Origin: Bacillota bacterium
GTDB lineage: Bacteria > Bacillota > Clostridia > Christensenellales > Pumilibacteraceae
DNA: 41,655 nucleotides
Direction: 5' to 3'
NCBI GenBank assembly: GCA_019113265.1
Contig: DXHT01000033.1
Span: 1 to 41,655, forward strand
The translations under genes were made by a program, and so were the position numbers. Below are positions 28,190 through 32,887 of this stretch, piece by piece. Position 1 is the first letter of the stretch. Each line of letters starts with the position of its first letter. The notes beneath the pieces are model-generated. The model did no database searches, was not told where the DNA came from, and worked only from the letters and a program-made list of their open reading frames with translations.

Positions 28190-28319
28190 TCCAAAAAGAC
28201 GCGATGAGCAGTAGCGCGGTATGACGCGAACGCGGCGAAACGGATAAAGACAGATCCAAAAAGACGCGAGGAACAGTAGCGCGGTATGACGCGAACGCGG
28301 CAAAACGGATAAAGACAAG
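28190..28319 (+). repeat. Two tandem copies of a 65-bp unit
   Basis: TCCAAAAAGACGCGATGAGCAGTAGCGCGGTATGACGCGAACGCGGCGAAACGGATAAAGACAGA (28190-28254) repeated with a few changes at 28255-28319. Confidence 0.92.
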
Positions 28320-28322
28320 ACT

Positions 28323-28360
28323 AAACCCCTCTATGTGCTTATCGCACGGAGAGGGGTTTA
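28323..28360 (+). terminator. Rho-independent terminator after the ABC exporter genes
   Basis: AAACCCCTCT...AGAGGGGTTT hairpin with inner TGTGC/GCAC pairing. Confidence 0.75.
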
Positions 28361-28481: not shown

Positions 28482-30551
28482 TCACCTCACTATCTGCGCC
28501 GCCTGCGCGTCCACCGGAGCGCCGTCAGACTCGACGCGGCGGTACTTGCCGTCCGGGCAGAGCCTGCGCGCCTTGACGTTGTCCGAAAGCATGAGTCTGA
28601 GTATGCCCTCTATTTTGTCCGCGATGCTCTCGTCGAGCACGGGCGCGGCGATCTCCACGCGCTTATCCGTGTTGCGCGTCATCAGATCCGCGCTGGAAAT
28701 GAACATCCTGCGGTCCTCTCCGCTACCGAAGCAGTACACGCGCGAGTGTTCGAGAAACCGCCCGACTATGCTTATTATGCGTATGTTGTCCGTCATTCCG
28801 ACGACGCCGGGAATAAGGCAGCATATGCCGCGCACGATGAGGTCTATCCGCACTCCCGCGCGGCTCGCCTCCGTCAGCTTATCGATGATCTCGCGGTCGG
28901 TCAGGCTGTTCATCTTGGCGATTATCCGCCCTTCCTGCCCGCTTTTCGCCTTTCGCGTTTCGCGCTCGATGTACTCCGTAAGCCCGGGTTTGAGCGTTTC
29001 GGGAGCGACGAGAAGCCGCTTATAGTTAAAGTCCGTGTTGCATATGGCTATGTTTCGGAAGAACGCGACGGCGTCCTCGCCTATGCTCTCGTCAGACGTC
29101 AGTATATTGAGATCGGTATACTGCTTGCTCGTGGACTCGTTGTAGTTGCCCGTGCCGAGATGAGTGACGTAACGCAGCATTTCGCCCTCTTTGAGCACGA
29201 CGGAAATTATCTTGGAGTGTACCTTGTAGTTCTCCATGCCGTAAATTATCGTACAGCCCGCTTCGCGCAGTTTGGACGCGAAATACATGTTGTTCTCCTC
29301 GTCGAAGCGCGCGAGAAGCTCTATGACGACTGTCACCTGCTTGCCGTTCTCGCTCGCGCGGCAGAGCGCGTCGACTATGCGCGAGTGATTCGCAAGGCGG
29401 TATATCGTTATGGATACCGACTGCACTCTGTCGTCCGTCGCGCACTGTTCGAGAAGATGCACCACGGGCGACATGCTTTCGTAGGGGTACGAGAAAAATA
29501 CGTCGCGCTTCGTTATGACGTCTATCAGCGACGACGCGGAGCGGATGTAATCGGGCACCGCTCCCTTAAAAGGCGGGTACTTGAGCGCCGCGCTCTTTTC
29601 GGGCGGAAGGAAGTTGCCCAAAGTGAACATGAACTTATAGTCGAAAAACCTCTCGTCCGTAAAGCAGAACGACGGCTTTATTTTGAGCTGACGTATCACG
29701 AAATCTTTGAGCCGTGACTGCTCCGTATCCGTTTCGAGGCGCACTACGCTCAGTTTCGCGCGCGACTCCACTTTCTTGTGCATGAACGCGGGGAAATCGC
29801 TCTCGACGTCCGAATCGTCTATGTGGGCGTCGAAATCGGCGTTGCGGGTGACGCGCATCATCATCTGCTCCGTCACCGTATAGCCCATGAATGCCTCGGA
29901 CGCGAACGCCCTAACCAGCTCTTCGACGGGTATCAGCTTGACCTTTTCCCCGCCGCCCACGCGGTACAGCCTGTCGATCGCGCCGCCGTACGACAGCACG
30001 CCTATCATCCGCCTGCCGCCGCGTTCGAGCTCGCAAAGCATGTAGCCGCGCATATTCTCGAACTGCATGAGCGGGTGCTTGGCGTCGAGCACCATTACGG
30101 AAAGAAGGGGCAGTATGCGCGACATAAATATCGCGCGGCACTCCTCTTTCTGCCTGGGCGTCAGCTCGCTTCCGCGCAGTATCTTTATGCCGCTCGCCGA
30201 AAGCTCCTTGCGCAGCGCCGAGTAGCAGCGGCTGCGAAGCGCGTACAGCCCTTTTGTCACCGCCGCTATGCCTTCAAGCTGTTTTGCGGCGGTCAGACCC
30301 GTCTTGTTGTCCTTTTCCTGCGGGTCGGCAATGCTCTCGTTTACGAGGCTGCCCACGCGCACCATGTAAAACTCATCGAGGTTGGACCCGAATATGGACA
30401 GGAATTTGCACCTTTCCAGAAGCGGGTTCGTGACGTCCTGCGACTGATCGAGGACGCGCCTGTTAAACAGCAACCAGCTGTACTCGCGGTTCATGCATAC
30501 GCCGCTTATGAATCTCTTTTTTACCTTGCTATCTGCCAAAATGTCTTTCAC
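28482..30551 (-). CDS. ppk1: Polyphosphate kinase 1
   Basis: NREYSWLLFNRRVLDQSQD...ERCKFLSIFGSNLDEFYMVRVGSL; VTHLGTGNYNESTSKQYTDLNILTSD. GTG start at 30551 or internal ATG at 30494. Confidence 0.96.
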   Translation of the reverse strand: MKDILADSKVKKRFISGVCMNREYSWLLFNRRVLDQSQDVTNPLLERCKFLSIFGSNLDEFYMVRVGSLVNESIADPQEKDNKTGLTAAKQLEGIAAVTKGLYALRSRCYSALRKELSASGIKILRGSELTPRQKEECRAIFMSRILPLLSVMVLDAKHPLMQFENMRGYMLCELERGGRRMIGVLSYGGAIDRLYRVGGGEKVKLIPVEELVRAFASEAFMGYTVTEQMMMRVTRNADFDAHIDDSDVESDFPAFMHKKVESRAKLSVVRLETDTEQSRLKDFVIRQLKIKPSFCFTDERFFDYKFMFTLGNFLPPEKSAALKYPPFKGAVPDYIRSASSLIDVITKRDVFFSYPYESMSPVVHLLEQCATDDRVQSVSITIYRLANHSRIVDALCRASENGKQVTVVIELLARFDEENNMYFASKLREAGCTIIYGMENYKVHSKIISVVLKEGEMLRYVTHLGTGNYNESTSKQYTDLNILTSDESIGEDAVAFFRNIAICNTDFNYKRLLVAPETLKPGLTEYIERETRKAKSGQEGRIIAKMNSLTDREIIDKLTEASRAGVRIDLIVRGICCLIPGVVGMTDNIRIISIVGRFLEHSRVYCFGSGEDRRMFISSADLMTRNTDKRVEIAAPVLDESIADKIEGILRLMLSDNVKARRLCPDGKYRRVESDGAPVDAQAAQIVR

Positions 30552-30625: not shown

Positions 30626-31801
30626 TTACGTAATTTGTTTTTTAGGCCGCCCGCGCTTCTTTGGCGCGCCTGCCGCGTTTGCACTCGCCTTTTTGGGCCG
30701 CCCGCGCTTCTTCGCCGCGCCTGCCGCGTTTGCGCTCGCCTTTTTGGGCCGTCCGCGCTTTTTAGCCGCGCCTGCCGCGTTTGCGCTCGCCTTTTTGGGC
30801 CGTCCACGCTTCTTTGTCTGCTTTTCGGGCAAGTCGTCCGCAACGCCGCGCGGAGCTCCCTCCGATCTTTTCCCGTCAAAGTCGTAGTACGAGCCGCTCT
30901 CGTCGCCCGAAAGCACGAGCGCGAGGTAGCCCTCTTTAACGCCTCTGTCGCTTACCGTCACTCTTTCGACGTCAAAGCGCTTGATGAGCTTTTTTATCAC
31001 CGCCGCGGCGGGCAGGATGACGTGCGTCTTTTCGGGCGCGGTCTTCAATATCAGTCTGGATCTGTCCGCGCCGTGGGCGAGTCTGCGGAACAGCTTGCCG
31101 AACTTCTTTCGGTCCATGACCTTTACGCCGTCGCTTTTTGGCTCGTCCGTAAATTCCGCGTACATGTCGTATATCGCGCCGCAGGTCTGACCCACTAAAA
31201 CGAGATCGGTATATTCTCCCTCGCGCGGCAGTCCCGCCTTGTCGAAGCGGGAGGACGCGTATTTGCCCATTTTCTTCGCCTCGTCCTCGTCGGGCTGGAT
31301 CTTGCCGTCGGCGAACTTTTCGTAGAGGTCGAGCAGACCGAAATCGAAGCAGGTCATGCCCTCTTTGCCCTTGCCGAGCGCGCATATCTCCATACTCTTT
31401 CCGCCGAGGTCGACGAGAACCGCGCCGCCCTCCGACGAATAGCGCATGTTGGCGACGTAATCGCAATACGCCTCCGCCCTGCCGTCTATTAGGTTCATTT
31501 CCAGTCCCGTTGCCGCTCGCACCGCCTCCGTCACCTCGCCGAAGTCGGAAATGTGCCGCAGTGCCGCCGTCGCTATAAGCCAGCACCTGCCGACGCCCGC
31601 CTCTTTAAGGCGCGACTTCATCTGCGAGAGTGCGGATACGAGTTTTTCCGTTCCTCGGCGGGAGAGCTTGTCTCCGTCCATGTAGTAAAGCAGGCTGAGA
31701 GGCTCGCGTTCCTTTCCCGTGACCTCGATCCCGTCGCCCGAGTCTTCCGCGATTATGACGGAAAGACTGCTCGAACTGATGTCTGCTACCGCATACTTCA
31801 T
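30626..31801 (-). CDS. Ppx/GppA-type phosphatase (exopolyphosphatase-like) with C-terminal AT-hook-like repeat tail
   Basis: MKYAVADISSSSLSVIIAEDSGDG..., LIATAALRHISDFGEVTEAV, NLIDGRAEAYCDYVAN, AVLVDLGGKSMEICAL (ASKHA-fold motifs); tail KKRGRPKKASANAAGA repeated. Confidence 0.85.
   Translation of the reverse strand: MKYAVADISSSSLSVIIAEDSGDGIEVTGKEREPLSLLYYMDGDKLSRRGTEKLVSALSQMKSRLKEAGVGRCWLIATAALRHISDFGEVTEAVRAATGLEMNLIDGRAEAYCDYVANMRYSSEGGAVLVDLGGKSMEICALGKGKEGMTCFDFGLLDLYEKFADGKIQPDEDEAKKMGKYASSRFDKAGLPREGEYTDLVLVGQTCGAIYDMYAEFTDEPKSDGVKVMDRKKFGKLFRRLAHGADRSRLILKTAPEKTHVILPAAAVIKKLIKRFDVERVTVSDRGVKEGYLALVLSGDESGSYYDFDGKRSEGAPRGVADDLPEKQTKKRGRPKKASANAAGAAKKRGRPKKASANAAGAAKKRGRPKKASANAAGAPKKRGRPKKQIT
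30642..30815 (-). repeat. In-frame 48-bp tandem repeat encoding (KKRGRPKKASANAAGA), about 3.5 copies
   Basis: Repeated DNA unit GGCCGYCCGCGCTTYTT...GCCGCGCCTGCCGCGTTTGCGCTCGCCTTTTTG on the plus strand; four KRGRPKK motifs in the protein. Confidence 0.95.
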
Positions 31802-31819: not shown

Positions 31820-32887
31820 TTATTTTGTACCCGTTGCAATCCCTATATCCTTTGCAAACTTTACCGTCGGCCCGTTCGGATCGACGAGTTTGTATTTGCC
31901 CGCTATGTCGCTCAGAGCGTTGAACGTTATCCTGCCGCCCGACACAGCCGCGGTGACTCCGAACCTGCCCTCTTTGGCAAGCTGTGCCGCCACGCCGCCC
32001 AGCCGCGAGCAGAGCAGTCTGTCGAACGCGCAAGGCGTCCCTCCGCGTTGAAGATAGCCGAGAACGGTGTAACGCGTTTCCGTGCCCGTGCGCTCGCCGA
32101 TGACCTCGGCAAGGTGGCGCGTGATCGTCGTTTCGCCCATGTACTGACGGGCAAACGCGCGCTCCGATTTCTTGTACGCCGCTTCCGACGCGAGCGTCGC
32201 GCCCTCGGCTACGGCTATTACGTTATACGGCTTGTCCCTACGGCTGTCCGCGACGAACTCGCATACCGCGTCTATGTCGAACGGTATTTCGGGAATGAGT
32301 ATCATGTCCGCGCCCGCGGCAATGCCCGAATGCAGAGTGAGCCATCCCGCCTTGTTGCCCATGATCTCCACGAGCATGGTGCGCCTGTGGCTCGCGACCG
32401 TCGTCTTTATCCTGTCTATCGCGTCCGTCACCACTTCCACAGCCGTCTGGAAGCCGAAAGTGACGTCCGTGCCGTAAATGTCGTTGTCTATCGTTTTGGG
32501 CAGACCTATGACGTTGCAACCTTCGAAGCCGAGCAGAGCCGCCGTCTTGTGCGTACCCGCTCCGCCCAGGGTGAACAGACAGTCCAGACCCATTTTCTTG
32601 TAGTTGTCGCACATCTTTTCCAGCCGCGACTCGCCGTTCTCTTCCACCGTCATGCGCTTGAACGGCTGACGCGACGTGCCGAGAACCGTGCCGCCTCTGT
32701 CGAGTATGTCCTCGAAATCCTTTTCCTGCATGCGGAACGAGTCGCCGCGTATCAGCCCGCCGTAACCGTCCGGAATGCCTATCATCTCCGCGCCCGGAAT
32801 GTTGCGCGTGCAGTAAAGTCCTATCGAACGAATGACCGCGTTCAATCCCGCGCAATCCCCGCCGCTCGTGAGTATGCCTATCTTCAT
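31820..32887 (-). CDS. pfkA: 6-phosphofructokinase
   Basis: MKIGILTSGGDCAGLNAVIRSIG..., GGAGTHKTA, GLPKTIDNDIYGTDVTFGFQTAVE, EIMGNKAGWLTLHSGIAAGAD. Confidence 0.94.
   Translation of the reverse strand: MKIGILTSGGDCAGLNAVIRSIGLYCTRNIPGAEMIGIPDGYGGLIRGDSFRMQEKDFEDILDRGGTVLGTSRQPFKRMTVEENGESRLEKMCDNYKKMGLDCLFTLGGAGTHKTAALLGFEGCNVIGLPKTIDNDIYGTDVTFGFQTAVEVVTDAIDRIKTTVASHRRTMLVEIMGNKAGWLTLHSGIAAGADMILIPEIPFDIDAVCEFVADSRRDKPYNVIAVAEGATLASEAAYKKSERAFARQYMGETTITRHLAEVIGERTGTETRYTVLGYLQRGGTPCAFDRLLCSRLGGVAAQLAKEGRFGVTAAVSGGRITFNALSDIAGKYKLVDPNGPTVKFAKDIGIATGTK

Follow-up and report, generated by a model that had tools for sequence, protein, structure and literature searches.

An AT-hook tail on a ppk1-linked Ppx/GppA-type protein of Christensenellales-type Clostridia

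Polyphosphate (polyP) granules are located in the nucleoid region, and AlgP has been proposed as their link to DNA (PMC9239181). The route by which granules enter the nucleoid is poorly understood, AlgP being one candidate link in one species. In E. coli, polyP promotes the specificity of Hfq for AT-rich DNA (PMC10954037). AT-hooks can bind RNA as well as DNA (PMC11354804). Among the enzymes that act on polyP, the working residues of DrPPX are D7, R86, E114, D136, and E143, and its polyP contacts comprise T10, N11, S12, H14, G139, G140, and S141 together with a REG motif (PMC11234463); the equivalents in MTB-PPX1 are Arg84, Glu112, Asp135, and Glu142 (PMC3411833). In the literature searched, we found no earlier description of a Ppx that carries AT-hooks. 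Here we describe such a protein, encoded in a stretch of 41,655 nt of clostridial DNA (the window), and its orthologues among related genomes.

A divergent Ppx/GppA core beside ppk1

The gene (30626..31801, minus strand) is an open reading frame of 391 aa with an ATG start. A preliminary description of the sequence read it as a Ppx/GppA-type protein with four AT-hooks next to ppk1, and the domain searches agree: the product matches PF02541 (Ppx-GppA; E = 1.9e-26, residues 18-293, 93.6 bits against a cut-off of 27) and, in four stretches, PF02178 (AT_hook; E = 1.7e-7, 30.7 bits against 17.4). PF02541 is also matched by 53 of the 53 members of set A3. The ppk1 gene lies directly downstream on the same strand, as described.

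The protein divides into two parts. Residues 1 to about 320 (30842..31801, minus strand) form a two-domain Ppx/GppA core of the ASKHA fold, most of which AlphaFold2 predicts with pLDDT >90. The tail, residues 321-391 (30629..30841, minus strand), is predicted to be disordered from its pLDDT of about 50-60 and its composition (18 Ala and 17 Lys in 71 residues); it has a net charge of +22, and the body one of -3. The best PDB matches of the modeled core are all Ppx/GppA proteins, from A. aeolicus, D. radiodurans, C. hutchinsonii, and E. coli (Ppx), with a Foldseek E of 5.7e-24 against 1t6c. The catalytic residues D7, R82, E110, D131, and E138 correspond to DrPPX D7, R86, E114, D136, and E143. 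Four of them (D7, E110, D131, and E138) are invariant in 81 of 81 cores, and R82 is invariant along with these four in the 53-row alignment.

The polyP-binding loop reads DISSSSxS in the subfamily, against the usual DxG[ST]NSxR/H. Position 14 is Ser in all 81 cores (His in DrPPX, Arg in A. aeolicus), and the counterpart of DrPPX T10-N11-S12 is S-[ST]-[SG]. The polyP-contacting [ST]-N-[ST] with its basic residue, and REG, are not found in the window protein, which has S10-S11-S12, S14, and KEG; across the subfamily KEG stands for REG, and GGGST is replaced by GG[KAG]S[IVLMT]. Since the DrPPX contacts N11 and H14 are both Ser here, catalysis may be weakened. The NCBIfam exopolyphosphatase model TIGR03706 gives 140 bits, below its cut-off of 307, so exopolyphosphatase activity stays a prediction. 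We conclude that the window Ppx genuinely belongs to the Ppx/GppA fold family, within a subfamily that has diverged; the altered active-site loop marks this subfamily, and the substrate should not be assumed.

These substitutions might point to a protein that has mostly given up catalysis and serves as a structural tether, with the Ppx fold holding polyP and the hooks holding the chromosome, as proposed for AlgP. The altered loop with its constant S14, the lost GGGST motif, and the low exopolyphosphatase score would all fit such a protein. However, none of the five catalytic and metal residues varies, which would be unusual in a dead enzyme, and there is no second Ppx beside ppk1, though the genome holds two other Ppx-like proteins. 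We consider this reading improbable. The two further Ppx/GppA-like proteins lie away from ppk1 (G000:C72:21060-21953 and G000:C7:23067-23375, in open frames of 514 and 294 aa), and the hook-bearing protein is thus not the sole Ppx-like protein of the cell.

In the window the gene order is pfk-ppx-ppk1, an operon-like arrangement with all three genes on the minus strand. The 6-phosphofructokinase gene (31820..32887; PF00365, E = 6e-98) is 18 bp upstream of ppx, and ppk1 (28482..30551) is 74 bp downstream; the latter encodes a polyphosphate kinase 1 of 689 aa with four PP_kinase Pfam domains and a TIGR03705 score of 712 bits (cut-off 466). For comparison we used 80 named relatives from GTDB 220, all clostridial MAGs and mostly from the gut, which include Candidatus Protoclostridium, Gallimonas, Borkfalkia, Scatosoma, and Anaerocaecibacter. 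In 74 of these 80, ppk1 comes after the ppx-type gene in the same orientation and no more than about 500 bp away (five of the other six are at a contig edge, and one has no ppk1); pfk adjoins the ppx-type gene in 78. Within the window genus the six genomes that have ppk1 all have the Ppx, and the eight that lack ppk1 all lack it, an exact split with a chance of 1 in 3003 among 14 genomes if relatedness is ignored. Elsewhere in the family there are genera that carry ppk1 but lack this Ppx, so the link between the two genes is not universal.

Two observations concern the surroundings of ppk1. Just past its end in the window (28190-28360) lie two tandem copies of a 65-bp unit with 95% identity, and after them an inverted repeat of 17 bp whose loop measures 5 bp. 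In two relatives with hook-less Ppx proteins, large proteins (905-952 aa) with a Lys/Ala-rich C-terminal tail are encoded near ppk1 (L172, 8850-11706; L176, 6469-9184).

The AT-hook array in the window and across the subfamily

The C-terminal end of the window Ppx reads ...KKRGRPKKASANAAGAAKKRGRPKKASANAAGAAKKRGRPKKASANAAGAPKKRGRPKKQIT. It is encoded by an in-frame DNA repeat present in 3.5 copies at 92% identity, whose unit measures 51 bp (17 aa) and not 48 bp as first described. As delimited by the repeat, the Pfam matches, and comparison of the copies, units 1 (30764..30814, KKRGRPKKASANAAGAA) and 2 (30713..30763, KKRGRPKKASANAAGAA) are followed by unit 3 (30662..30712, KKRGRPKKASANAAGAP) and by a partial unit with the fourth hook, KKRGRPKK (30638..30661), after which come QIT and the stop, all on the minus strand. 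The three differences between copies 1 and 2 are all synonymous, and those among the three full units and the partial fourth are mostly so. Across the 1.54-Mb genome the window Ppx is the sole instance of an in-frame array of the RGRP pattern. Promoter and terminator-like sites near the gene are close to chance level.

An RNA element within the repeat or beside the gene was considered and set aside, there being no Rfam match in either place. A related idea is that the hooks bind RNA (ribosomes or structured mRNA) rather than DNA and so couple polyP to translation; HMGA1 AT-hooks and extended AT-hooks do bind structured RNA (PMC11354804). Yet there is no Rfam element beside the gene, Pfam finds no RNA-binding domain in the window Ppx protein, and AT-rich DNA is the classical partner of tandem canonical hooks (general knowledge; PMC11354804). 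We judge RNA binding to be very improbable as the role of the hooks.

We collected the tails of 79 orthologues from a distinct subfamily of Christensenellales-type Clostridia and added that of the window (n = 80). RGRP is found in 49 of the 80 tails, with one to five cores in each and 90 in total; shuffled tails contain 0.34 on average and never more than three in 500 rounds. Four more tails have RGRKP without RGRP. RGRP is the tetrapeptide common to most tails, and its flanks ([KR][KR]RGRP[KRP]K) have mostly K or R before the core and K at +5 in 85 of the 90 cases; this is the classical AT-hook consensus.

The preliminary description expected that copy number might vary between strains; among species within the genus it does vary: there are four RGRP cores in the window, three in G006, two each in G003 and G010, none in G004, and three RGRKP in G002. 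That description had also named, as evidence against it, a tail confined to this assembly or missing in close relatives. It largely withstands this check: the tail is not unique, given the 49 hook-bearing members of the subfamily, but a close relative (G004, protein L102) has lost the hooks and keeps a short basic tail only. A frameshift was rejected as the cause in G004, where no hooks lie downstream in any frame. A clade of 12 Anaerocaecibacter members likewise has short, Lys-rich, hook-less tails, and one of them (L179) is practically tail-less. The hooks are therefore dispensable.

Spacers between the hooks are 55% identical inside an array and only 17% between arrays. Since spacers are alike within an array and unrelated across lineages, the arrays were amplified separately, with the hook core as the part that was kept. 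In a maximum-likelihood tree built from the cores, the deepest branches (L143; L166, L169, and L171) bear hooks, as does the main clade. An array in genome G461 is apparently split between two contigs (L236 at the start of C16, L237 at the end of C9), with five hooks on one piece and four on the other and strongly acidic spacers; joined, the pieces may form one array of nine or more hooks. An assembly artefact, or a tail peculiar to one assembly, was rejected because many independent MAGs and species bear hooks in differing spacers. The AT-hook tail on the ppk1-linked Ppx is real, clade-wide, and evolutionarily maintained.

We also asked how far the hooks are specific to this gene. In the genomes of 28 tail-bearing relatives there are 17 AT-hook matches: 14 in the Ppx, two in the split G461 array, and one in a chance frame. 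The model is weak, with only 13 positions, and single hooks can escape it, so that the count elsewhere is a lower bound. No PF02178 match occurs in any of 14 control genomes. The flanks of the orthologues hold 587 other naive ORFs; a basic terminus of this kind occurs in 12 of them and a strict hook in one, and by eye most of these are overlapping-frame ORFs. Within the reach of these tests, we reject the idea that proteins of these genomes commonly carry hooks, because the matches are almost all in the Ppx gene.

A neutral, slippage-prone extension of low complexity is another account of the tail: tandem repeats readily expand and contract, copy number runs from zero to five and more, and one member of the genus is hook-less. 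Against it, the RGRP core recurs amid unrelated spacers (90 against 0.34 expected), the differences among the full-length copies in the window are almost all synonymous, and such tails are rare on neighboring genes. The recurrence of the core largely refutes a functionless tail, which we find scarcely credible.

Hooks or hook-like motifs were seen on a few other proteins. In genus g18 (Anaerocaecibacter-like), genomes with a hook-less Ppx encode a roughly 620-aa protein that bears two KRKRGRP[PR]K hooks (L035, L036, and L037); L037, the only one of the three scanned, has a C-terminal RnlA-toxin DBD domain (PF19034). A 0.9-Mb genome of the same order encodes a coiled-coil-like protein with four AT-hook-like motifs (L038; G088:C7, open frame of 809 aa), and a Rho-like termination factor (L039; G075:C13) has RGRP hooks in its N-terminal region.

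A possible tether between stored polymers and the chromosome

A function of the tail is strongly suggested. We lean, with some reserve, toward a Ppx that is anchored to nucleoid DNA through its multivalent AT-hooks, which would place polyP turnover or putative granules at the chromosome. The structured core would bind and probably trim polyP, while the disordered string of C-terminal hooks, going by the AT-hook consensus, would make several contacts with the minor groove of AT-rich DNA. In this way the tail could hold the enzyme on the nucleoid, together with the polyP that is its substrate, and polyP degradation, or the positioning of putative granules, would take place next to the chromosome. 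The predicted chain would run from DNA binding through nucleoid placement to local polyP turnover.

The tail may instead chiefly hold polyP, its basic clusters catching long chains and feeding the short two-domain enzyme, and would then replace the additional domains that long Ppx enzymes have at the C-terminus. Its position equals that of domains 3 and 4 in most Ppx enzymes (PMC11234463), disordered cationic regions condense with polyP (PMC12259020), the window tail is strongly cationic (+22), and Lys-rich tails persist in the hook-less members. However, in 31 of the 49 hook-bearing tails the residues that do not belong to hooks sum to a zero or negative charge, the whole tail is net negative in three relatives (L132, L153, and L162), and the exact R-G-R-P order is kept, which a role of charge alone would not need. 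We regard a chiefly polyP-holding tail as unlikely. Because the parts of the tails around the hooks are neutral or acidic on average, sequence-specific AT-hooks are favored over a generic cationic tail, and this charge pattern, with the strict R-G-R-P order, favors DNA tethering as the predicted function over general cationic polyP binding or an H1-like tail. Since the tail replaces domains 3 and 4 of the long Ppx enzymes, it could hold polyP as well, or do both.

In many relatives a second storage-polymer enzyme, glycogen synthase, has a Lys/Ala/Pro-rich, histone-H1-like N-terminal extension (L183, L201-L230, and L231). The AT-hook search of family f30 met a glycogen synthase, GlgA (L183; G115:C46), with an AT-hook and a Lys/Ala-rich N-terminal extension. 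Nearly all of the best 30 GlgA matches among relatives have N-terminal extensions rich in Lys/Ala/Pro/Thr that span about 25-180 aa and mostly lack RGRP, in a list that is biased because the query itself carried such an extension; many GlgAs of lower rank align only over the stretch that begins with the catalytic domain. The GlgA of the window genome has a short N-terminal extension of about 40 aa. Basic disordered tails on two storage-polymer enzymes are compatible with an anchoring of stores to the chromosome, and since glycogen is no polyanion, the extension of GlgA would not be accounted for by polyP binding. That storage-polymer enzymes (Ppx and GlgA) are themselves chromosome tethers in these Clostridia is a tentative and rather doubtful extension of the same idea; if true, these cells would fasten both their phosphate and their carbon reserves to the nucleoid through the storage enzymes themselves, with no separate AlgP- or PhaF-like proteins.

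A polyP enzyme with its own multivalent DNA-binding tail, kept beside ppk1 across a clade, would link phosphate storage and chromosome directly and with simple genetics, and the natural orthologues span zero to five hooks.

Comparison with known systems

The window protein resembles the short two-domain Ppx/GppA proteins (Aquifex aeolicus, 1t6c and 2j4r; M. tuberculosis MTB-PPX1, Rv0496; Cytophaga CHU_0316, 3mdq) in its fold, the length of its core, and its invariant catalytic and metal residues. It differs from them in the AT-hook tail and in having DISSSSxS in place of DxG[ST]NSxR/H, GG[KAG]S[IVLM]E in place of GGGSTE, and KEG in place of REG.

In its repetitive, disordered, and predicted DNA-binding C-terminal tail it resembles AlgP of P. 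aeruginosa and PhaF, which are storage-polymer proteins too. In these proteins KPAA repeats follow a helical, non-enzymatic N-terminal part, whereas the window protein has neither feature, its RGRPKK units being joined to a Ppx fold encoded next to ppk1. The likeness is functional, not homologous. HMGA-type proteins and bacterial AT-hook proteins (M. xanthus CarD and the WhiB family) have the same Lys/Arg-flanked RGRP cores, sometimes several of them, in a disordered region, but these are architectural or transcription factors, and the hooks described here sit on a polyphosphate enzyme. The Hfq-polyP-DNA heterochromatin of E. coli likewise links polyP to AT-rich DNA (PMC10954037). There, polyP alters the DNA binding of a separate protein; in the window, the enzyme itself bears the predicted DNA-binding motif.
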